A stretch of 64,000 bases of DNA, taken from assembly GCA_903813345.2 (NCBI GenBank), contig CAIIXF020000012.1, forward strand, positions 23,882,184 to 23,946,183, in the 5' to 3' direction. Under the pieces are notes generated by a model. It made no database searches and had not been told where the DNA came from. It worked only from the letters and a program-made list of their open reading frames with translations. Each line of letters begins with the position of its first letter. The first letter of the stretch is position 1. The translations under genes were made by a program, and so were the position numbers. Shown here piece by piece: positions 3,001 to 63,380 of the stretch. This DNA comes from Owenia fusiformis (taxonomy: Eukaryota > Annelida > Polychaeta > Sabellida > Oweniidae).

Positions 3001-5590
3001 TTTGTGAACGGCTACGGACGTTTTTCGCATTGTACCCGTCATGCCCGATCATGGTCGTTAATACTCATTGGAAAAATGTTTTTAACTGGTAACTATAGAG
3101 AATAAATAGAGAATAATAACATGAATTGAATAAAGGTTTGCTCGGCTTGTTTGACATGTTTGATGGTATTTGTTTTGAAAGAATGGAAAAACGAAACAAA
3201 GTAATGATTTCTATAGAAATACATATTCATGCACGGACTTAAAGGGTCCGTGGTTCATGTAATAAGTGTATACATGAATTATAGAAATTCCAAATAGAAT
3301 ACTGTATTTTACTGTTGCCTTTTAATATTAAACACCCCTCATTGGTCAATACTTAGGCTTAGTATAGACTATAATGAAAACTCATACAGACTGCTCATAC
3401 TCGACATTTGCGAAATAAGAAGCAAGTTACAAATTAGGTTTGTCGTGTTTGTAATACATGGGCACATATACAAACACTGCTGGAATTTAACGAAAGAAAC
3501 GGACACGAAACTGGAATGAAATAAGAATATACAAAAATTACCGAATTATTTGGAAGAATTGATGACGTATAGTTCATTTGTTTGTTTATTTGTTGATGGG
3601 GCAATATGTCACTGACGTCACAGATATTGGTATCATATTCCGAGAATTCATTAACAAAAGTGTAATATGACGTCATGATAAAACAGGATTGAAAATGAGG
3701 AGCTCTTATGGTATGAGGTTCCATATCCATCCGCCAAAAGGTATATAGTCCATTTAAAAACTTGTGGTTTTGTTCTAAATAACACCATAGTTGGCTTCTA
3801 GGGTACCTAGTATGCCACTATTTGGTATCAAAATAAAGAGGAGGAGTTCAACTTTCATTTGAATTACGAAAATAGCGATGTAGGTCAAAATAGTTCCGAC
3901 GTGATCATGTTTACTACGCGTTTGCCCGTCATCTCAGAATTGAGAAAATGGTAGCAAACGCGAGTTACAATAAATGGACGCCGATATCTCAAAAAGTAGC
4001 CGGACGCCCTATAATTTAATGTAGATCAATTGAGCCCCTATATGAACAGGTGCATTTTGATATATAACACTATGGGGGGAGGGGTAAGCGTTTTATAGTT
4101 GATCACGAACGCCATATGTGCAAAGTATTGTTCTGATTTTTCGAATTTGGTGTTCGATTACGGTACTCATACCCTATGGATTACTATGTCGTAAAGCGTC
4201 ATATATCGTCATTCTGCGTCATTGATATTTAATACAGAACACTTGTCAAACCTGAGGTTAACAAACAAGCTTTTCCTAGAGGTGTTTATTTTCTATATCT
4301 GTAATTTAAAGGTGTAATAATGAGTGCAGAGGGGTCATTCAACGATCATGGACCAATGTCAAAATATATTTAAGTTTGGATATTTCATCAAGACTAACAT
4401 CTATTTTTATTATCTACAAAGAAACCCCCTAGATAAACATTATTTTAGCTGGTATTCCTCTTGAAACTTTGTGGATCTTAAAAATATAAAAGTGGAAGTC
4501 CCCCTTTTGAAGCTTTTAACTGAATTTACACTTCTTAATGCTGAAATTGATAATTTATCCATACATTTTAAGAAAATAGGTATGTCAAAGAAGATGTTAA
4601 ACCAAATGTTGCCTTGATAGCTCAGAAAAAATGAAAAAACTTTCCTTTTTTCTCTGCAGTCCTTATTGCCCCTTTAAAAATATATCACCATTAACGTAAG
4701 GGATAGCATGGTATATCCTTAAGTGAAATTCACCATTCATGTCATTTTCAAATTCTATCGGATTGTGGATTTGGCATGTGATTATTTCTCATTTAATTGG
4801 TTTTAAATAAACGCGCTAGATTTAGATTTAAATTACTCATTTTATTCATATATGAAAAAAATATATTAACAAAATGAAGAACACTTTCTCCTTTACTGTT
4901 CGAAATATAATAAACAAAGAAGTATAATGTTGTCTAAAATGGAAATGCCAGTACAAGAAAATCCATTCATTTATTTGATGTCTCGTAAAGATCAAAACTG
5001 TATAAATGTAGCAAAATATTTATTTACATCCAGTACCAATAGCAATATCTCTAGTGCACCAATGCATCAGCATTATTAATAGTAATAGTTATGTACCAGT
5101 TATGTAAATGTCTTCCATGTACTTGACCCCAAGGGGTGTGAATGTACTTGAAGAATAAATATATACATACGAGTATAAATATGATTTAAGGAATACATCT
5201 ATATAGTGTCCAAATTGATTCAATAATCAATATAGATTTCGCACATATTCAGAAATTTTTGCATTTGTACATTCACATCGATAAATTAAGGAAGATCAGC
5301 GCACAAGAAGGCTATAGCATTAAATAAAATTTATGAACATAGAATACACCTATAGTTATACATTTTCAATTCCAAAACAAACATGAATATGATGAAACAA
5401 GTCCTATGTATCAAGTCACGTGCATGATTTATGCCGTCTGCTACAGAGGTCAATGTGTAAGATATATTGACCGGATATATTGATTGGATTTAGCATGTCG
5501 AATATGGATACAAATTAAATTCTATAGACTAGATAGTCTGCATGCACACGATCATCGATTTATCAATTGAAGCAGTGCATGACAAGCTTG
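1..5590. other. Non-coding AT-rich stretch, no gene supported
   Basis: Open frames here are short, lack recognisable domains and have amino-acid composition typical of random AT-rich translation. I see no tRNA or rRNA and no exon with both a convincing coding signature and splice sites. It may be intergenic or a long intron of a gene outside the window. Confidence 0.6.
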
Positions 5591-5600
5591 TGTATAATAG

Positions 5601-5698
5601 AGATCCTGCAGACATGTAGCACAAATGTTCTCAAGTCCAAGGTAAGAGGAGTGAGCCTGAAAATAAAAAGGAAAACAATCAGCAATGATTTAATTTTT
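5601..5698 (-). repeat. Diverged single-copy relic of the macrosatellite unit
   Basis: This stretch matches the unit segment that runs from the Pst-like CTGCAG motif through GTAGCACAAAT and CAAGGCAAGAG to the ATCAGCGATGGTTCAATT end, with many substitutions and with the middle of the segment (the GATTCTCTGTGGTTTTCC part) absent. It lies about 460 bp before the array starts. On the minus strand the segment keeps a pyrimidine-rich stretch ending in TTTTCAG at the same place as in the array units. It is either a decayed outlying unit or the local source sequence of the array. Confidence 0.6.
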
Positions 5699-6736
5699 GA
5701 ATGCTCCACCTTTTATGAGTACTAGTATCTACAACTGTTTTTGATCTAATGAGATATTTTCAATTCGTTCTTCAATATGTAAAATGACTTTTGTATAAAT
5801 GAACATGAAACGCCCCTAGGTGTTTTGGCACTGAATTGTGATGTTGGTTCTCGATTGAAGGGGTAAGGGAGAAGGGGATGTTAGACATTATTTCTTTTCA
5901 CGATAGATCATGGTTTTGCGATTTATAACATGTATAGGGTTAATTTATCCTATAACACCAACATAACTAAAGAAAAGAAGCAAGTCAAATATCCTGTTTA
6001 ATCCATTTTCGATAATTAGAATAGGGGTTCTTAAACAAGATATTAAAGCATTATTGGCGAGTACTAAAAGAAGAGGTTTACACTTCGAATTCTATTTGCT
6101 ATGTTTTAGTACTGAATCCTAGTGCCCAAGTTGCAGTAGGTATGAATATTCAAGAAAGCATGACAGACCACATGTGAAAAAATGAAAAATGGATTCATGG
6201 TACATTTGTACATTAAATGAAATCAAGGAAGTCATCATTCAGTGTATTTCTTAGAAAAGAATGTTTGCTGGACAAACATTTGCCAACAATGGAATTAGAA
6301 TCTCAACAATGGAAAATGTGTCATTGTGGAATAACCGTACTGAACCAGAGAGCATGATCATCACATAATAGAACTGATCATGCGCTACAGTACCTTTAAC
6401 AAGATGGTATGTAGATACAAATGCTGCAGATAGGTAGCACAAATTGTAGATTCTCTGTGGTTTTCCCTTTGTGGTTCTTTTTGTTCTCTCCAAGGCAAGA
6501 GGACTGCACCTGAAAGTACATTTAAGGAAAAGATCAGCGATGGTTCAATTAAAAAGAAAGAAACCCCGAAACTAAGCCCACAATTTTAACATGAAAACCC
6601 AATAGAAGACCCTTCAATCTCCAACTGTAGCTAAAATGAACACAAGACTTCAGACCTTCAAAATTTAGATCTGGAGTAGTACTTGAAGTCAACTTTAAAA
6701 TTGAATCATTACTGAGTAAGTACTGGTCAACGAAAT

Positions 6737-6794
6737 ACAATACAATACAATACAATACAATACAATATAATACAATACAATACAATACAATACT
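6737..6794. repeat. (TACAA)n pentanucleotide run, present in every unit
   Basis: About a dozen TACAA units with occasional TATAA variants. The same run recurs at the same point in all units (for example 8955-9015, 13935-13990, 27940-27995) with variable length and interspersed AAAC variants. Confidence 0.9.
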
Positions 6795-6829
6795 AAGCAC
6801 TAGATCCATGATCTTGGTCATCTGGTTCG

Positions 6830-7065
6830 TTGCTTGTCTGGTTCGTTGGTTGTTTGGTTCGTTGGATGGAGTGTTGGTTAGTTGGTTGATTAATTAGTTA
6901 GTTGGTTGGTTAGTTTTAACCTATTGGGTGGTCTGGTGGTTGTCTGGTTGGTTAGTTGGTTGGTTAGTAAGTAAGTTAGTTAATAGATTAAGCCTATCGG
7001 GTCATTGGTTGGTCAGTTGGATGTCCGGTAAGTTGGTTGGTTGGTTGGTTGTGTCTGGTTCTTTG
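6830..7065. repeat. GGTT-rich tract, present in every unit
   Basis: About 235 bp almost free of C on the + strand and built from GGTT, GTTA and GGTC words. It ends in a C run of six or more bases. The equivalent tract lies just after the TACAA run in each of the nine units. Confidence 0.9.
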
Positions 7066-32159: not shown

Positions 32160-32252
32160 TTAAATGTATGTTTGTTTATTTATTTATTTATGTGCCTCGT
32201 ATAGAATACCCAGCCTATTTATCGGGCGTACAATATATTTGAAAGCAATATT
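32160..32252 (-). mobile_element. 3' tail of the minus-strand LINE, separated from its body
   Basis: On the minus strand, after the AATATT shared with the other side of the 8.48-kb insertion, this reads TTGTACGCCCGATAAATAGG, then ATACGAGGCACATAAATAAA and more ATAA repeats. A short simple-repeat tail of this kind ends many non-LTR retrotransposons. The body ends at 40,732 in the same orientation, so the two belong together if the intervening 8.48 kb is a later insertion. Confidence 0.65.
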
Positions 32253-32639
32253 CACGGGTAGTATCTGAAGCCCCGCCACGATTTAGAAATCGCGAGCAAG
32301 TTCCCGCTGAAATCGCGAGCAATTAAAAGAAATGAAGGGGTATCTTTTGTTTACTTAAATTGTATGTTGTACAAAGCGTTTTCATTTAATTTTATTCAAT
32401 TATCACATGGCAGTGATACTAAAAAGCAACTGCTGCAAAACAAGTATCACGATCTGATGTTCTGAATTTCGTTATTTGATAATTGGAGAGAGAATGTATC
32501 ATCTTAAATCTTTATCTATATATTTCTATATTTTATAGCCGAAGAAGGTCGTTGCCCTTCAGTTGAAATGTTTATAGTGATATGAAATAAAGGTATTCTG
32601 AGTTTCACTTCCTAAAGCTTCGCCGAAATTTATATATTT

Positions 32640-32765
32640 CCATTTTACCATATCCCTCAAGGCCCCGCTTCTAACATGAGCAATAAACTAAAGATCCCGC
32701 TGAAAACATGAGGAAGCCCCGCTGAAAACATGAGGAGGTCCCGCTGAAATCAGGAGCAAGTGTCT
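32640..32765. repeat. Left subterminal repeats (CCCGCTGAAA...ATGAGGA)
   Basis: Four imperfect ~21-bp copies, including AGGAAGCCCCGCTGAAAACA and AGGAGGTCCCGCTGAAATCA. The same set appears inverted at 40,255-40,325. Clustered subterminal repeats are common transposase-binding sites in several DNA-transposon superfamilies; here that is inference. Confidence 0.75.
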
Positions 32766-32799
32766 CTCCAAAATGGAGTTAAGCCCGATTTTACTCTGC

Positions 32800-33530
32800 A
32801 AATCTGCCACGATTGTAGCCAACAACGTAATATATATAATAATTATTGATACTCTACAGAGCACATGTATATATCATATATCATTGTTATTGTTATTATT
32901 GTGACAACTAAACATGTACATGTGCGACTCTTTTAATATTATGTAATATCATTGTTATTTACGACTCTCTTTCATCATCAACTATCAATTCTTTAAAAGA
33001 GTCTCACGTGATTATGTTATTATGATAAGTTTTACCAGTGCAAGAGGCGCATATACGTATGTTTAGGCCATCATAAAAAAGTACCAAAAACATTACGGAC
33101 TTTCCCAACCGCCCACCCGTATTTGACTCCCATACAATATTTCCCTGAGCCAGATGGCCTAATGCCAACCCCCTCTCATGAAGATGACCGATGACAAAGT
33201 TGTGCAGCAACCCAGTGGCTGTTAGACTACCATAAGCTAAAATGAACGGATGTGATTCATGTGAAGCAGGGATCTTATCTGGAAATAGCAGCATCCAATT
33301 GCAAAAACTCGGCAATACAATAAACTGCTGTAAAAATAAAATTAATGTTAAGTTGATGATTTCGCGCGTCATGTGGAACCAAGTGTTTAAAAGATGAGAG
33401 GAATTCCATCATGTTGAAGTACAGGTCGCATTTCAGCATCATATGGATCGGTGTTTCCGATTGTCTTGTCTTGTCTGGTTTGCTCAGCCAGCTAAAAATG
33501 TCATGTGAGATACAATGAGACGCGCAAATT
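32800..33530. other. Interior of the 8.48-kb element with one unassigned 122-codon frame
   Basis: The minus-strand frame at 33004-33372 starts MTREIINL and has a hydrophobic start, but no domain or convincing codon pattern. I do not call it a gene. Confidence 0.4.
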
Positions 33531-33533
33531 AAG

Positions 33534-33598
33534 AAGCACGGGACATGTGGAGCTCAGTTTAGAATCAAAGCACGGGACATGTGGAGCTCAGTTTTGAA
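33534..33598. repeat. ~33-bp direct duplication
   Basis: AAGCACGGGACATGTGGAGC followed by TCAGTTT occurs twice in tandem with only small differences. Function unknown. Confidence 0.85.
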
Positions 33599-34123
33599 TT
33601 CCATTATGGAAACAGATTTAAAATCAGAAATATTATTATTGAAATAATACATTCAAAATGATTTGGTTCGTAATCGTAATAGATAAGGGAGTTTAAGCTT
33701 GCAAATAAAATTTAAACGTCAACCTATACGTATGACCAATCGCCAAAACAAATGCATCGTTTAATATTTCCCGTTCACGTTAAGGTTGTAAAAAACATCG
33801 TAAGCTTAAACAACCTATTATCACGATACATCAACGTATAAATTGTTAACACTTTTAACACCAATGCAAAGATTGAACAAATGAAACAAATTTTTCAATA
33901 ATAAAATGCCATATCTAATGTGCCACTTCAGTGTTTTAGCATATCAAAGTATTTTGCAACCTAAGTGACATCATAGTGAAATCATTGCATGTAGGTAGCA
34001 AAACGTTTTGAACAAAATCAAAATTGATAAATGGTGAATGACAATCACATTAATTAAGTTCTATACGTATGAGAGAAAACGCAACGGAATATTTGTACAA
34101 TGTATTTTAAAAACATAAATATA

Positions 34124-34830
34124 CAGTGCGTATCAAAAAAAACGCAACAGATCGTTATCTCGGAAAAGCACAAAACCAGTGATAACAGCATTGATTTCAT
34201 TCAATGCACTGTAAAGCCATATGTCTCCTCTTTACAATGATATATCATTCATTGATATTTGGTCATGGTTGCGCGAGTAATCATTCCATTTGCAAAGTGC
34301 GCCAAAATTAGCTTTGGGCCAAGTTATAAAAATCGCAAAAGTCAGTGTACGGAGCCCGATGCAATATTGGAAGAAAACATAAAACCAATGCTGATTGCAT
34401 CCTTTTCATTCAATGTACCAAAAAGCTAAATTACTCCTCCTTGCAATGGAATATCATTCATTCACAGGGAGTCATGGCTGACCGAATAATCGTTGATATT
34501 GCAAAGGGGCAAAATTCAGCTCGGACCCAAGTTTTAAACATTGCAAAAGTCAGTACAACGGGCATTGGGGCTATTGGAAGAAGGTGTGACAGGTGTGGTA
34601 TAGACAGTAAAGTGTTCATACTCATACTCTTGCAAGAATACATCCAATACCCCTCCAAATTACTACCACCTTCTTGCACATAAAGATGCGCTCATCTGTC
34701 CACGTCATGCATGGTTCAGCCCTGAGTCATCTGTGGGTTAAAGCAGAGAAAAGCAGCACATGGGCAACTCTTTCTCGAGGTTTTGCAATATCTGGTGGAG
34801 GAATTGTGAGCAAAGATGTTCCTGAGAGAG
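34124..34830 (+). mobile_element. Truncated Tc1/mariner-like inverted-repeat element, copy 1
   Basis: It begins CAGTGCGTATCAAAAAAAAC after TA and shares over 150 bp with the left arm of the element at 38547. An internal near-duplication of the ~210-bp terminal region follows, then a segment present in inverse orientation in copy 2 (CTCATACTCTTGCAAGAATA; ATATCTGGTGGAGGAAT). The right end is lost where a different element begins near 34,833. No transposase frame is visible. Confidence 0.7.
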
Positions 34831-34895
34831 TATCCTGTTAATAATCAAAGATTCGAGGTAATAAATGTGGATGGATATCTGAAAGAACGGGAAAA

Positions 34896-35064
34896 CCGGT
34901 GTAAAGGGTAGGAGGTCCTATCAAATTATGGTCATACTCTCCATTGATTTATATGGTGACCTCAATAGAACTCTTTCCCTCATTATCTTATACGCAATTA
35001 GGGCCAGTAAGGGCCGTTAAGAAAGGGACCATAATCCCTGGGGGACCATCATTTCTTTCACACC
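34896..35064. mobile_element. Small MITE-like element, copy 1
   Basis: Ends CCGGTGTAAAG and inverse CTGGTGTGAAAG, with inner inverted AAATTATGGTC / GACCATCATTT. A second copy sits at about 48,070-48,204, giving independent support that this is a dispersed repeat. Confidence 0.75.
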
Positions 35065-36240
35065 AGCCACGGCCAAGAAATCAAAACTGGACATTAATAT
35101 TCTAAAATTATTCCACGGTTGGGTGGAAATTTTCTGAAATTTGGCCAATTGAACAATGTCAACCAAATGACCAAAAATGGTATGAGATTAACAGATCATC
35201 ATATAGTCGGTTCAGGATATTTGCAGTATCCCTTGGGCAATATAATGTATCAATCCTCGGGACCTAAGGCCCTCGGACAGATATATTATATTGGCCTCGG
35301 GATAATCCCAATATCCCGAACCTCATAAAGGATAATCTCTATATATTTTACTGACGTTACATTATACGTATACATGTAGTTCAGTACATCACTAAATAAG
35401 ATGAATCGGCAGCAATGGCGCACACATTTAAAAACCAAGTTTATAGATCCACTTCTGAATGTTATTAACCTAGGAGTACAGGCCTTCTTCGAATAGCATT
35501 TGTGTTTCAAATAATAATAGTATGACACAAATGTTAGTGCAACCAGGTGCAATCGGACCTGTAAGCATTACTATTATATGCAATTTTCCGTTTTGTAAAC
35601 TTCGATATACATAGCTAAGTATGGTGTATATTCCTTAGTTTTTTTCTAGAAATCTACAAAATTCCACTGCTGTTTTGTCTTAACAGTATTTTCAATCACG
35701 GCAATCACTTTTCAAACGAATTTACTAGAAATATCAGAGGGTTGACTGTTATTCTCATATTTAGTAGTACTAGATGTGAATGACATTCACTCTTTATCAA
35801 GCAGGAAAATAAAATAATAATTTGCTACATGGCATAATGAATATAACCAGAGGATATCGCCACGATATAATCCAGTAAACCAATATGCGGAAGGTTTTGT
35901 AATGATATACTCCAATTCTTGTTGATTTCCCCCATTTAGTACACTAATTGAAGGATATTTAGAACATCCTATGAGTTTTTCAGAAAATCATATTAATCTT
36001 CCCGACGATATTGATATATGAACTCGTTCGCTTCGCTCTCTCGTGCAGATATCAATATCATCTCTAGTTAGATAAAACTGATTTTCTTTAAAATCATAGG
36101 GTATCCAAAGAATTTACATCGGATTAACGATCTCGTAAAATGTATCATTTTGTCGAGTTATTGTTAATGGTGAAAAAGAAATGAAAATGCATGTGTTCAC
36201 CTTAAATTAGCAACAAATTATATTTAATGTAACATAAAGC

Positions 36241-36694
36241 TAAGGCCACAAGAAGTAGATTCTTTGTTTTGCGTCCTGGAAAAATCCAAAATCATGCAAG
36301 GGTACAAGGAAAACAAACACAAACTCAATAAAAAACACAATCTTATTTGCTGAGAAATGTTTACATTTTATGGGCTTAAAAGGGATGACATACCAATTTG
36401 CAGTGATTACAAACACATAGCTAAACATTTTATACAATATATTTAAACATACAGTAGCTATTATTCGACTGTAAAAAATAAGAAAATACACAATGTATGC
36501 CAAAGTAATCAATAAAACTGTCAATTTTGATGCACATCAAATTATCTGCCATTTTACCTGATTCTGATTGAACGAAACGCGACGATACGTCCAGACCCTT
36601 GTGATTGATATTTGGATGTGTTTATTTTTTCTGATTTACTCAAAATCCTGCAAGCTAGGGGACGCAAAACAAAGAATATACTTCTTATTGCCTA
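36241..36694. mobile_element. ~455-bp MITE-like element with ~35-bp inverted termini
   Basis: Left TAAGGCCACAAGAAGTAGAT followed by TCTTTGTTTTGCGTCC matches the inverted right end TTAGGCAATAAGAAGTATAT followed by the same TCTTTGTTTTGCGTCC. The interior is AT-rich with no transposase. The target duplication is not clear. Confidence 0.75.
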
Positions 36695-37277
36695 ACATTA
36701 CTTTTCATATCAAATTGATGAATCTATCAGAATAATCCAAAGAACCTTTTTCAAATTATTCGCTCAAATAACATGTTCTTGGGACTAATCAACTTTCATA
36801 GACATTTCAAAACATTCCTATATTTATATGATAGTACAGAAATAAAAAGTAAAAAGAAATAGGATTTCATATAAGAGCATGGAAATATTTCAATCCTAAT
36901 TTTGTAAGGGTTATGTAATGGGAGGTTTAGGATAAACCATGTATCCAAAACCGATCGTACATATAGAGATTATCCTATAGTCGGTTCAGGATATTGGGAT
37001 TATCCCAAGGCCTATATATTATATCTGCCCGAGGGCCGTAGGTCCCAAGCTTTGCAACCAACCATGGAATTATTCTAAAATATTCATGTCCAGTTTTGTA
37101 TTCCTGTCCGTAGCCGGATTTTCCTGTTCAAATCTTTGATTATTAACGGGGCATACTGCTCCTTCCCTTCTTTAAAGCATCAAAGAGATCGCGATTGTCT
37201 GCGTTTTTCTCCATTGTTGTTCACAGTATGTGAACGTTACAAAAAAAGAACCAATACGGGAACAGCGATTATGACGT

Positions 37278-38134
37278 AGCGGGCAGATATACTGACGAAT
37301 CGCAAAAAGGTGGCGCATTTGTTTTTAAGGGTATCGCGTGAATGTAAATTTGATTCCCCGGATTATAAGATAATATTCTAATTAAAGTTATATATCATTT
37401 TAAAGCTGTTTCGATGAAGTTTTTAGATCAACTACACTCCGTTCACGATTCTTGCGCGTTCTTTTTTAAAAAAAAGTTTTTTACCAAAACATCTGGCAAA
37501 TATCCCCTGTTGACATGTTACATTTTGAATTATTTTCCGTCTTTAAAAACTCAAACAATATATGACTATTATACTTATTTTTCGTCTTGATGAAGGTAGA
37601 TGGAAGTTTTATTTCAAAGGATGAATTTTAGTAAGCGTCCCATATTGTGACGTCATAGAATCTGTTGACAGCGACCTTTTTTGCTCATTTTTTGTTACCT
37701 TCAACTTTTCAAGTGTACATTAAACAAAAATTACGAGATCAATTTTTAATAAATCATAAGTGATTATTTTGCTCTTAAACTCTAGTTCATTAATAAATAG
37801 TTGATTTTGTTCGCAAAAGTATGTGTTTTCTGTTGTATGTGGAAAAGTGGAGGACGAAAGGTTTTCAAAATTCATTAAAATAGGGCTAATTTACGCCATT
37901 CGCCTATTTTCAAGCACAGCAACACGTATATTTATTTCACCTAGATACTCCTATCCCATTGTTAATACATATACGATATCAGAGTTATTCGCCTTAAATG
38001 TTTTGACTTATAGAGGGAAATGTGGAGGACGAAAGGATTTCCATATGTGTACATTTTTCTTTTTTGTTAAAAAGCGAAAATGTGTAACAATGCGTGCGCG
38101 ACCTTTTTGCGACACGTCACTATATCTGCCCGCT
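37278..38134. mobile_element. ~857-bp element with ~40-bp inverted termini
   Basis: Left AGCGGGCAGATATACTGACG then TCGCAAAAAGGTGGCGCA; inverted right AGCGGGCAGATATAGTGACG then TCGCAAAAAGGTCGCGCA. Two direct copies of GTGGAGGACGAAAGG lie inside at about 37,848 and 38,021. Another TTTGCCCGCT word follows the right end. No coding sequence is recognisable. Confidence 0.75.
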
Positions 38135-38546
38135 CGGAGAGGGACGTAAAGCTATATTTGCCCGCTGATGAAAATATAAGTTTTTACAAACCGACTTTAT
38201 GTACCCGTAACGCGTCCAAGTATGGGATAAAACAGATGTATTCTATAGCATAAACATAAACATAATGATAACTAACTTCCAAAATTCAAACACATACTAA
38301 AGTACGCATTTTCTCAAGAAGTAGTTTTTAAGTTTGATTTTACACTCATATATTGCCGGAGCAGATCAATAAATTGATATTAAAATTTCAAATATACAGC
38401 ATAAGTAAAGTTTAAGAAAATCTTTATTTCGTAAATTGAGTAAAACGTATTTATTGAGTTCGATTTTCAGGAGCGGTACCGGAGTGGATACAGCCCATAT
38501 CCATCCCGGTCTCGTACTTTAGCGATAACTCCCCACATACACTATA

Positions 38547-39575
38547 CAGGACGAATAAAAAACGCAACAAGCAGTTATCTCGTAAAATCACAAAACTAGA
38601 GGTGACTCCATCAATTTCATCCAATGTACCATAAAGCCACGTCTCTCCTCTTTGCAATGATATGTCATTCATTCACATGTGGTCATGGTTGGGTGAGAAA
38701 TCCTTCCATTTGCACAGTGGGTCAAAATCGGCTCTGGACCAAGTTTAAGATATTGCAAAAATCAGTGCAAGTACCAATGGAAGTTCTCCTGACTTGAATT
38801 GTTGTGAATTTTTCTTTTGGAGCTATCTCAGGAGCATCTGTGCTAATCATTCCTCCACCAGATATTGCAAAACTTCGAGAAAGAATTGCCAATGGGCTTT
38901 TTCTTCGCTTTAACCCACAGATGACTCAGGGCTGAACCATGCATGACATGGAGAGATGAGCGCATCTTTATGTGCAAAAGGTGGTGGCAATTTGGAGGGG
39001 AATAGGATGTATTCTTGCAAGAGTATGAGTATGAACACTTTGCTGTCTATCACGCGGTACTAACTTCGACCGTTAATTTGAATTTTTGACCTACCAAATC
39101 TTTGAAAATCAAGGATTGCGAGTCCCATACTGCACAATTTTTCTTCAAACTTGTTCCATTCAAAGCATAACAAAAATGCCTTTCGCGTGTCTATGTCACA
39201 CCTGCCACACCTTCCTCAAATATCCCATATGTCCTATGTACTGTTTAAAACTTGGGTCCGGGCTGAATTTTGCCCTACATTGCAAAATTAATGATTATTC
39301 GGAAATGATTATTATGAAAAGGATGCATTGGTTTTATGTTTTCTTCCAATATTACACTGATATTCGCGATGTTTATAAATTGGTCCCAAGCTTATTTTGG
39401 CCTACTTTGCAAAAGGAATGATTACTCGCTCAAACGTGACCCAATATCAATGAATGATATACCATTGGAAAGAGGAGACACGTGGCTTTATTGTACATTG
39501 AATGAAATCAATGCTGTTATAACTGATTTGCGCTTTTCTGAGATAACAATCTGTTGCGTTTTTTGATACGCATGG
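38547..39575. mobile_element. Tc1/mariner-like inverted-repeat element, copy 2
   Basis: TA abuts both ends (38545-46 and 39576-77). Left CAGGACGAATAAAAAACGCA and inverted right CCATGCGTATCAAAAAACGC lead into about 200 bp of inverted similarity, including ATATGTCATTCATTC / AATGAATGATATACC-type arms. The interior holds the segment shared inversely with copy 1, broken at 39,053 by the left end of another element. No transposase is readable. Confidence 0.75.
39053..39185 (+). mobile_element. Truncated left end of the 406-bp fold-back element family
   Basis: CACGCGGTACTAACTTCGAC and the following ~110 bp match the left end of the complete copy at 43376, including CCGTTAATTTGAATTTTTGA and CTTGTTCCATTCAAAGCATA. 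It lies nested in Tc1-like copy 2. Confidence 0.8.
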
Positions 39576-40254
39576 TATATTGATTGTATATCGGCTCGTT
39601 ATGTGCCTACAAAACCTCAGTAGCAAGGTATGGAATACTTAGATACGACATTAGTAACTTGGAGAAACATCAAATGACCATCGAAATCTTCCTGACATCT
39701 CACATTTTTGAAGTATTGTTATAACGTATTTTTCTACATTGATGGTGTATAAATCATTCTTGAAATAAATATTTAAAAAACAAAAACTTTAATGTTGTTA
39801 TTGTTAAATTATAAAAGTAGAACCTACAACGTCTTCTGAATTATCATGGAGCCTTTATGGTTCTCCTTTCTCTCAAAATTTCCTGTTCTTGGAACTTGGG
39901 GTGTCTCTGTTTAATAAAAGGCTCATTCCCCTGAACTTCATGCTTCCATCAAGTTGTCTTGAATTTATGTTGAAGTCGAATACACGATATATCCATCTTT
40001 CTCCTATATATTTTGGTTCGTTTATTTTGAAATCCAATGATGGGTGAAACTGTACAAAATGTTTGACGAAATCGTTCTGCTCTGATGACTTGAAGTTGCA
40101 ATAAAAACATTTGAAACGTGGCCCTAGAATGAAACAGTATATATAATTAATAGAAATACTTTACTTGGTCTTTCGTGTACGTTTATTTGAAGAACCTCAA
40201 TATTTAATGGAATGTAATGAAGCTTTCCTCGTGATCGAAGCGGGTACTCGTGAA

Positions 40255-40325
40255 ATCTGCTCCTGATTTCAGCGGGACCTCCTCATGTTTTCAGCGGGGC
40301 TTCCTCATAATTTCAGCGGGGCCAC
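40255..40325. repeat. Right subterminal repeats of the 8.48-kb element
   Basis: Inverse copies of the left subterminal repeats: TGATTTCAGCGGGACCTCCT, CATGTTTTCAGCGGGGCTTC and CATAATTTCAGCGGGGCC. Their order mirrors the left end. Confidence 0.75.
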
Positions 40326-40731
40326 TGGAACACCTCAAATGGTGTATTTCACCCCCCACAGGAGATGTTATTGTAAACTAACTTATCAATACATACAATA
40401 TTGATCCAATATTCATTATGAGGAATGCATATCGTAGTTCTTGTCTCAATTTTAACGACAAAAGTAATTTTGTTACAGTAAATTATGTAAACGTGCATAT
40501 TTGCGCCAGTTTCTTCCATGACGATAAACATATTTATCGTTCATGTCATTGTTTGCGAAGACTATACCTGTTCTGAAAGTATACCTCAAGTTTCAAAGAA
40601 CAGTAATGCGTATTCTTACCATTTTTGTCCATATTTCCAGGTGACACAAATAAAAAGGACTTTGCTCGTGATTTCAGCGGGAACTTGCTCGCGATTTCTA
40701 AATCATGGCGGGGGTTTAGATACTACCCGTG

Positions 40732-42990
40732 AATATTATAAGTTGTTATATGATGGGCATACTAGTAAAAAGTGGAACTCGTCCTCAATAGGGGATATAT
40801 TATCGTTCTTACAATGTAAGCAAAGTCTCTGGTCAACTGGGGTGGATCTGTACAATGTATCTTCCAGTCTCCAGCATTAATGGTAGTGTGCCTGATCTTG
40901 CTTTTGCAAGCAATGATCTGAATGTTCTTGGTAAACAGTTCTTGACATAATCTTCTGTTCCAAATGATGTTTTAAATGCCCTATAAGTCCTTAGTTTTGG
41001 CATATTGGCGATCTTAAGTTTCCATTCTTCGATGTATCGTTGTAGTTCCGCTGTTTTAACAGAATCGATGATGAGTGAACTATCTCCAAAGCGTCTTGTT
41101 TCATATTCACGTAGCAAATTAGCAGATATAAATATTTCTCTTACATCCTTGCACCAACATTTGTGTCTTAAGATAGCATTTTCATAATCAAAGTCGAAAA
41201 TTCATCTAGTTAGCCTATCACTAGGCATTTCTCTCAGTCTAATAAAGAGTCTCACCATCTCTAATCGGTGCCTTATGTTAGGTGGTATCCATCCCATATC
41301 ACCGTAAATTGCTGGAAGGGGAGCGTATTTACCCAGGCCAAGAAATGTTCGCATTGCTCGATTTTGTACTAGCTGTGGTTTGCTAAATTCCTTATATCCC
41401 CAAACTCCTGATTCATAGTCCATGATTGGGCAATTGCACTGTCGTATATCTTAGTATATGTACTGAAGTTTAATCCATTCATGGAAAAATGTTTTCTTAT
41501 ATGTCCACCAAGTGCACGACCGCTGGATTCAGCTAATGTTGTTGCAGTTTCGGTGTAATCCAGTGTCTCGTTTAAGGTGCTATGGAAGTTAACAGGAAAT
41601 GACAAGACAAAAAATGTCAAAACCATGCTATACCCCTACCCCCTGTTTGAAAATGAATAGATGGCGCCTCTTTAACTGCCCATAGCGACTTCGTTTACCA
41701 CACATTTTTATTCCACCCAAGATGAATTTATTCTAGAGAGTGTCTGGAACAAAATGATACCAACAAACCTTTTTTCCAAGCCGAGTAACGAAATTTTAGC
41801 TGGGGACAGGATCACCAGGGACAATGAATCTCGGATCCAAGTACGTCATTAATGGTCGAAAATCAAAATATTGACAAATTTATAGCCTAAAAGGCCGAAA
41901 GATTATGCGGCAAATATTGAAACGGTGGTTGTCAACATATTGTAATAGCTTTGATCTCTTAGAATCCGTTGAATCCTAAGCGATTGGAGCTGTTTAGATC
42001 ACTTAACGAATGATACGAAATGATGAGGATTTGGGTTTTTTCAAAGTTTATAATGGCGCCCAATGGGGGATTTAGCAAAATATCCCGAAAAATAAATCAT
42101 TAAAAGGCCGAAGGATCTGTGGATGGATTTTGCTGTTTTATATATCAAAATGAACACTTCGTTGGGTCTAACAAGGATCCATTGAATCCTAAGAAAATAA
42201 ATGATTTGCTAAAAAGTTATTAAGATTTTAAATTTTGATGAAGACTGCTCTCCATTAAAATCTTTGGACCATGAAATTTCGATTTACGCGCATGCGTTGT
42301 GACGTTATTTCCATTATTCTACGCTCGTATGTGTGTTTTTGCACGGTTTGGGCCTTTATGCTTGATGTATTGCTTTTCGTGGAGACAAGCGTCCGTCCAG
42401 AGTGATTCAAGTTCTTCATTCCACCAAGGCTTTGGCCGGAACTTAGATTTCCTAGTCGTGCTTGTTTTAATGTCTTTAAATGTTAATTTAGAGTCCATTT
42501 CTGTGTGTAAAATTGATACAAATTCTTCATAAATATTGTCAATTTCACTTTGGCACTTAAGAGATGTCTCCATGCGATCACAGACACGGGCAATTGACCG
42601 AGCAACACCTTCGCTAGCAAACATATCTATGGGAATTGTTCTGTCGTATTTCCTGTTAACAGGATCGTTATAAGTTTGCGTCTGAGTAGTTGCAAAATGC
42701 TGTTTTGGGCTCGATGTACATTTGTCGGCGTTATTATTTCAATTTCACACCAGCAGACAATAGAATGATCAAGTTTTGTATTGTCACGAATATTTGCGTC
42801 AATTTTGATGACTGAGATTGCCTTAACTCCACATTGTTTGATATAATCCAACATATAGTATGGTGTAATTATGTAATCAACAACTGATGATCCAATGGTT
42901 GATATATATGTATAATTGTCGTATTCATGAGTAACTCGACCATTGATAATGCACTGGCATCCATCTTTAAAACAGATAATCCCCGAATTT
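40732..42990 (-). mobile_element. Decayed, internally deleted LINE (non-LTR retrotransposon)
   Basis: Reading on the minus strand: an endonuclease C-terminus near 42,960-42,850 with YISTIGSSVVDYIITPY (the GxSxxDY-type motif); after a frameshift, a linker (42624-42319) with RPKPWWNEELESLW; then 41640-42300, where the RT fingers and palm should be, unrelated sequence; the RT C-terminal region from 41626 (ESSGRALGGHIRKHFSMNGL) into 41423 (DYESGVWGYKEFSK, GDMGWIPPNIRHRLEM); then 41117 onward (RTYRAFKTSFGTEDYVKNCL; GTLPLMLETGRY); and after another frameshift a C-terminal Cys/His module LCLHCKNDN...IEDEFHFLLVCP (about 40,845-40,741). These are known features of CR1/jockey-like LINEs. Several frameshifts and the missing polymerase core make it inactive. 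Confidence 0.85.
41880..42205. repeat. Degenerate ~225-bp duplication inside the LINE gap
   Basis: AAAAGGCCGAAAGATTATG and AAAAGGCCGAAGGATCTG, each followed about 80 bp later by a TTGAATCCTAAG word, suggest an ancient tandem duplication. It occupies the place where the RT core should be. Confidence 0.5.

Positions 42991-49435: not shown

Positions 49436-63380
<13,945 letters not shown>

Follow-up and report, generated by a model that had tools for sequence, protein, structure and literature searches.

A non-autonomous DNA transposon family of Owenia fusiformis with CACGGG...CCCGTG ends, probably mobilised by transposases combining a finger, a YqaJ nuclease domain and a DDE-like core

In the annelid Owenia fusiformis, a 64,000-nucleotide stretch of contig CAIIXF020000012.1 (assembly GCA_903813345.2, positions 23,882,184 to 23,946,183; hereafter the window) contains an 8.48-kb element inserted into a long interspersed nuclear element (LINE). 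It is a real, well-bounded mobile element and, as to its kind, an ordinary one, namely a non-autonomous DNA transposon. We consider it probable (roughly 0.78) that it transposes by cut-and-paste and is mobilised in trans by a group of transposases in which a C2H2-like finger, a YqaJ exonuclease domain and a DDE-like core are combined. What is unusual is the transposase group that probably stands behind the element and not the kind of element itself.

Read directly in the window, the left junction is ...GCAATATT/CACGGGTAGTATCT... and the right junction ...AGATACTACCCGTG/AATATTATAAG..., the slash marking the edge of the element, with AATATT abutting CACGGGTAGTATCT on the left and AGATACTACCCGTG on the right. 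The outermost arms (32247-32322 and 40662-40737) are inverted over 76 nt and 95% complementary when the duplication is included; without it, the terminal inverted repeats (TIRs) are about 70 bp long and match at 66 of 70 bases. Further inward, subterminal arms of 63 nt (32696-32758 and 40258-40320) are 97% complementary, and five CCCGCTGAAA-type units are found on each side. Since AATATT is its own reverse complement, the window copy alone fits a duplication as well as the last 6 bp of an inverted repeat. The latter is ruled out by the other copies, whose flanks are unrelated and in which CACGGG and CCCGTG lie directly beside the duplications.

Further copies were searched for in the window's own assembly (498 Mb, 525 contigs), where the 14-base terminus occurs 198 times (95 forward and 103 reverse), the reversed control giving 0 and 0. 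Among 100 of these 198 places listed, 24 head-to-head pairs of termini, 1.6-17 kb apart, were recognised by eye. Both junctions were read in 28 copies including the window, and all 28 start with CACGGG and end with CCCGTG. A duplication abuts these ends exactly in 26 of the 28, being 5 bp long in 19 and 6 bp long in seven, two of which (C8:34295515 and C8:34449041) are a single event copied with its surroundings; when left and right flanks were taken from different copies as a control, a 5- or 6-bp match was seen in 3 of 756 pairings. The target duplications of the 28 copies have no common sequence. Inverted ends with a target duplication in many independent copies, by which class II elements with TIRs are recognised, are thus found here at 198 ends and in 26 of 28 pairs. 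The boundaries, the terminus and the mirrored subterminal repeats proposed in the initial annotation, which had been made from the window alone, are confirmed by the junctions, the additional copies and the 63-nt arms. The 6-bp duplication that it also proposed is real for the window copy but does not hold for the family: with both classes common, 6 bp is one of two usual lengths and not a rule.

Searches with longer queries gave lower bounds on copy number, namely at least 40 matches for the 548-bp left end (91-100% identity; 19 at 97-100%, the rest at 91-92%) and at least 42 for the 552-bp right end (18 at 97-100%, 22 at 89-90%, and two short pieces). When the window was compared with 17 further copies (16 different insertions), three subfamilies could be distinguished. 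The long subfamily, to which the window copy belongs, measures about 7-9 kb (7.2-16.7 kb among the copies read). The 2.8-kb subfamily is 91% identical to the window at the left end and 88% at the right, and the 3.9-kb-type subfamily (3.0-6.5 kb among the copies read) is 82-84% identical at the left end and 77-81% at the right. Mainly some 550-700 bp per end are common to all three, and the sharing mainly of ends is the usual appearance of non-autonomous families. Within the long subfamily, the central part of the nested-repeat interior, at element positions of about 3337-6932, is about 92-99% identical between copies, which indicates that the interior of the window copy was largely present before the long subfamily spread. 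The copies of 14.7 and 16.7 kb were considered as candidate autonomous members and rejected, as no transposase was found among up to seven of the longest open reading frames (ORFs; at least 90 codons) of each; a LINE-type zf-RVT ORF lies inside the 16.7-kb copy.

Some individual copies have features of their own. In 3.9-kb-type copies (L012-L019) the interior is a long low-complexity repeat, open in several frames for up to 749 codons and read as LPSFL-like or KEGRK-like peptides; it is apparently no gene. At C3:9202894-9206737 (L020 and its left neighbour), units of about 1 kb, their ends spaced 962-1039 bp, form a tandem array; every unit has a degraded finger ORF and a terminus of the window type, as in a satellite-like multimer of one transposon end. 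The copies at C8:34295515-34302699 and C8:34449041-34456224 are near-identical, lie 153 kb from each other and agree in flanks and target duplication; they go back either to a recent duplication of the segment or to a doubling in the assembly.

Regarding the insertion site, the left and right flanks are found on one strand, 145-172 bp apart, at about 19 places in the genome (counted by eye; two were read). In both LINE copies read, additional bases come after AATATTATAAG and before TAA(G)TTGTTATATG or a sequence differing from it by one base. The window LINE does not have those extra bases, so that its halves are colinear except for a small deletion starting 5 bp beyond the right duplication. 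The initial annotation is confirmed in that the two halves derive from a single type of LINE and point the same way. Two minus-strand ORFs in the right flank (41202-41450 and 40833-41201), recognised by eye, presumably correspond to the C-terminal part of a LINE reverse transcriptase; neither had a match in Pfam, and this assignment therefore rests on sequence recognition.

The initial annotation had seen no transposase in the element, and the window copy indeed has none; a trace of the gene is nevertheless kept as a finger exon near the right end. The finger of this ORF is C2H2-like and scores below the Pfam cut-offs, and minus-strand counterparts of the ORF lie near the right end of other long-subfamily copies. 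As a genome query it gave 152 matches; among those listed, family copies are mostly 85-100% identical, and other matches have identities between about 30% and 75%, often with an open frame. Six of the matching neighbourhoods were read, and in one, L047, a 1467-codon open frame (P0001) comes after the same finger exon.

The L047 element (C5:4840270-4851071) is bounded by the TIR CACGRGGGGAAAGAGTACCCGCGTATATACAACCTACCGCCGAGCAA, with one mismatch over 47 bp, and by the duplication TACAT; a 1.65-kb deletion derivative in its family (L050) has a perfect 47-bp TIR and the duplication TACAC. The termini of the L047 family occur 152 times exactly in the genome (control 0), and 10 of 10 pairs read are flanked by duplications, split evenly between 5 and 6 bp (five each), against 1 of 90 in a mismatched control. 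With P0001 as the query, 35 matching stretches were found in the genome, comprising seven loci with conserved D and E motifs and shorter pieces. Another complete element, C5:40973451-40990880, has the TIR CACGGGATACCAGAGTATCCGCG..., identical at 63 of 63 bases, and the duplication GAGAG, and its terminus has 143 genomic matches with up to 2 mismatches (control 0). Both complete C5 elements have CACGRG ends and 5-bp duplications.

The window ORF is 45% identical to the L047 exon over 86 aligned positions (E 3e-27) and 33% identical to the exon at C5:40.97M (E 5e-15), and the pattern PRxKCxxCxxKS...DFxxHF...HP is common to all three. In each of the three families the exon reads inward from a similar place, 571-855, 596-991 and about 670-930 bp from the element end. 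GAGCAA-type subterminal repeats are found in the window and L047 families. The finger exon and CACGRG ends common to three families, together with the GAGCAA repeats and the mixture of 5- and 6-bp duplications common to two, argue that the window family is a non-autonomous branch of this group.

The protein encoded by the related elements unites the C2H2-like finger, the exonuclease domain YqaJ and a DDE-like core, the last marked by a D-x2-H signature. YqaJ was detected above the Pfam cut-off in P0001 (9e-6) and in two homologs (9.5e-9 and 1e-5). P0001 was aligned with six homologs, each position being covered in five or six of the six. The nuclease residues D525, E540 and K542, which correspond to the PD-(D/E)xK site in YqaJ, are identical in P0001 and all homologs covering them, and so are the core residues D800 (in a DGQ motif), D1250-x2-H1253 and E1422; D748 is replaced by E in one of the seven sequences. 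The conserved D800, D1250xxH and E1422 would fit a DDE/D transposase in the autonomous relatives, for which no transposase match above the cut-off was obtained in Pfam or PDB.

A long frame of the same YqaJ-DDE family (1469 codons) is also found at C11:10096000-10100684 (L065, L055), where stretches coding for the C-terminal part contain stops. No terminal repeats were found within 2.5 kb upstream and about 4 kb downstream; this locus may represent an ancient copy or have been domesticated. An end at C7:16373187, considered as the terminus of the C7 transposase locus, proved to be one end of an element of about 300 bp of the same group, resembling a miniature inverted-repeat transposable element.

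As to how the window element moved, the CACGGG...CCCGTG ends, the TIR of about 70 bp and the subterminal CCCGCTGAAA/GAGCAA repeats would serve as binding and cleavage sites for a transposase acting in trans, which complete elements of this group, with CACGRG ends, would provide. At the target, a cut with a stagger of 5 or 6 bases would be joined to the ends and leave the duplication, and the YqaJ domain may act on transposition intermediates. The window copy would descend from an ancestor that retained only the first, finger-coding exon, other sequence including nested repeats having replaced the rest. On this view, a repeat family that had been an orphan, with some two hundred exact ends in a single genome, would be linked to a candidate transposase that brings an exonuclease domain of its own. 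The conservation of the nuclease residues across diverged copies, and the existence of two elements with near-identical ends, offer a system for testing the role of the nuclease, and the mixed 5/6-bp duplication bears on how the length of a staggered cut is set.

Several results weigh against this reading. A search for an autonomous copy, suggested in the initial annotation, led to related elements with an intact-looking transposase, but none with exactly the window's ends was found in the genome; none of the 35 transposase matches lies beside a CACGGGTAGTATCT end among 100 of the 198 places listed (up to within C7), and no CACGGG was seen in the fetched flanks of the two C11 transposase loci. 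TIRs were found at only two of the six transposase loci whose flanks were read. No TIR was present in the fetched flanks of C11:10.10M, C11:19.85M, C7:16.37M and C6:5.37M, which may be decayed or domesticated, and the flanks of C3:22.03M were not covered. The TIRs of the three families have little in common beyond CACGRG, apart from GAGCAA-type repeats in two of them, so that cross-mobilisation is hypothetical. On the protein side, YqaJ falls below the Pfam cut-off in two homologs and was not reported at E 0.1 in two further ones; no transposase family scored above the cut-off in the nine fragments scanned against Pfam, and neither P0001 nor its profile matched any solved structure (PDB chains) up to E 10. 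Two of the 28 pairs (C6:5010471-5016950 and C8:32435959-32444797) have no duplication and may be composite. Lastly, an exact empty site with the flanks joined at a single AATATT, likewise proposed as a check, was not found: none of the 60 matches obtained, among them the two flanks of the window copy itself, spans the join.

The group might instead be an aberrant member of the P superfamily, with a P-type transposase that gained YqaJ and makes a shorter staggered cut, which we regard as less likely. One homolog matched the Pfam family TNP-like_RNaseH_N (PF21787), presumably of P/THAP9 type, over a stretch that includes the residue aligned with D800; this match (E 0.0022) is below the cut-off (18.7 against 24.6 bits) and was obtained for one of nine fragments only. 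By eye, DFHHLLTNSR resembles DVPHLLKTSRN of P-like ORFs of the same genome, whereas hhalign against these ORFs gave a probability of 0.2%, with a poor profile built from near-identical sequences, and no solved structure was matched up to E 10. The P superfamily is the nearest guess for the transposase core, through links that are suggestive only. The duplications speak against it, being of 5 or 6 bp in 26 of 28 copies with none longer, and in 10 of 10 pairs of the L047 family, compared with about 8 bp for P and hAT elements (PMC3706591). The P-like ORFs compared are near-identical and of P-superfamily type (L077-L079; C4:29370493, C11:2203561 and C10:19101834), which indicates that ordinary P-like elements are present in the genome as well.

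That the group consists of Transib/RAG-like transposons, of which CAC ends and 5-bp duplications are hallmarks, is very improbable. CAC forms the first three bases in 28 of 28 copies, but the protein and its profile found no counterpart among the solved structures, a set that presumably includes RAG1 and Transib, and YqaJ is not known to be part of this family. A 5-bp duplication, as in RAG-like and Transib elements, is found in 19 of 26 copies, whereas 7 of 26 have 6 bp and the bases beyond CAC do not fit the protostome consensus CACTWMCAAAC... (PMC7204232). It is also improbable, though less so, that the ends are moved by an unrelated transposase and that the finger ORF was captured as an exon from the host or a foreign source. 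C2H2-like fingers are common, and the want of an autonomous copy with the window's exact ends would be in keeping with capture. However, three families with CACGRG ends have the same exon at a like place and pointing the same way, and two of the three also have the same 5/6-bp mixture; that it was captured independently at one place each time is unlikely. Mobilisation by the finger-YqaJ-DDE-like group is the preferred reading.

Table 1. Features of the window (position 1 is its first nucleotide).
Feature	Position	Strand	Basis
Non-autonomous DNA transposon copy (window family, long subfamily)	32253..40731	.	Ends, TIRs, other copies
Left target-site duplication AATATT	32247..32252	.	Junction reading and other copies
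Right target-site duplication AATATT	40732..40737	.	Junction reading and other copies
Left TIR, CACGGGTAGTATCT...GAGCAA	32253..32322	+	76 nt including duplication, 95%; 66/70 without duplication
Right TIR	40662..40731	-	Inverted-repeat pair with left TIR
Left subterminal CCCGCTGAAA-type 22-bp repeats	32664..32761	+	Repeat family and inverted pair
Right subterminal repeats, mirroring the left set	40226..40324	-	Repeat family and inverted pair
Interior of nested inverted repeats	34115..39584	.	Repeat analysis and sister-copy comparison
95-codon stop-to-stop ORF, C2H2-like finger, remnant of first transposase exon	39876..40160	-	Homology to L047 and C5:40.97M exons
Host LINE 3' end, left part	32160..32252	-	Joined-flank search and copy reading
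Host LINE, right part as far as examined	40738..41640	-	Joined-flank search, copy reading, reverse-transcriptase C-terminal-like ORFs

Elsewhere in the window, several ORFs rich in H, P and S are found on the minus strand at 49436-50332 and 59099-61589, which we take to resemble exons of an AUTS2-like gene; those at 49436-50332 and 59099-59521 gave no match when scanned against Pfam.

Partial likenesses link the group to several known systems. With the P superfamily and THAP9 it has in common a DxxHL-type motif and the sub-threshold match around D800, but P elements have a THAP-type finger and are not known to carry YqaJ. Polinton/Maverick elements, which are self-synthesising, carry a DNA polymerase gene and make 6-bp duplications, were rejected as a home, as the duplications here are mostly of 5 bp and no frame of 110 codons or more, apart from the finger exon and the one of 1467 codons, is present in the part of L047 read. 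hAT elements have a C/DxxH signature (PMC9587614) and duplications of 5-8 bp (PMC4482050), a range with which the lengths found here are compatible, but no hAT family was among the Pfam matches of the nine fragments up to E 5. In Dada, a DDE core with DxxH after the second D is associated with a large transposase, 6-7 bp duplications and subterminal repeats, and in some members with a fused DnaQ-like exonuclease, proposed to trim cleaved ends (PMC3706591). This DnaQ-like domain differs in type from YqaJ and is placed between the second D and DxxH (PMC3706591), whereas YqaJ precedes the core here. Moreover, Dada-U6 and U1 elements are described as having no TIRs, in contrast to the 70-bp inverted ends of the window family, and Dada targets small RNA genes (PMC3706591), whereas the window copy lies in a LINE, the flanks of other copies not having been searched for RNA genes; given its TIRs and LINE target, the element was not assigned to Dada.

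The autonomous elements of ISL2EU (PHIS) also have a YqaJ exonuclease, although on a separate ORF and with a 2-bp AT duplication (PMC4482050, PMC9179366). Here one ORF encodes both YqaJ and the DDE-like core, and the duplications are of 5 or 6 bp; with neither an AT duplication nor a separate YqaJ ORF, the group was not placed there. Transib/RAG-like elements (PMC7204232) resemble it in their CAC ends and 5-bp duplications and differ in the rest of the terminus, in the transposase and in view of the frequent 6-bp duplications of the window family; this home was rejected as no RAG1-like core was found by sequence match to PDB up to E 10. IS3EU was set aside for its TA..TA termini with a 6-bp duplication (PMC10045372), compared with CA..TG ends here. 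A study in scallops counts YqaJ genes among transposition-related families (PMC10225492), and a search of open-access literature (Repbase not covered) found no description of YqaJ and a DxxH-type core in one protein, nor of CACGRG ends with 5/6-bp duplications. The initial suspicion that no named superfamily fits is thus borne out, since the group fits the definition of none of those compared. Tentatively, and at somewhat less than even odds, it can be proposed that the window element represents the non-autonomous side of a superfamily of eukaryotic DNA transposons that has yet to be described. Such a superfamily would have CACGRG...CYCGTG ends, duplications of both 5 and 6 bp inside one family and a single transposase in which a C2H2-like finger and a YqaJ PD-(D/E)xK exonuclease are fused to a DxxH-type DDE core, the nuclease perhaps trimming transposon or target ends during transposition. 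Transposons with a nuclease besides the DDE enzyme are few in the literature surveyed, ISL2EU and some Dada elements being those with which this group can be compared.

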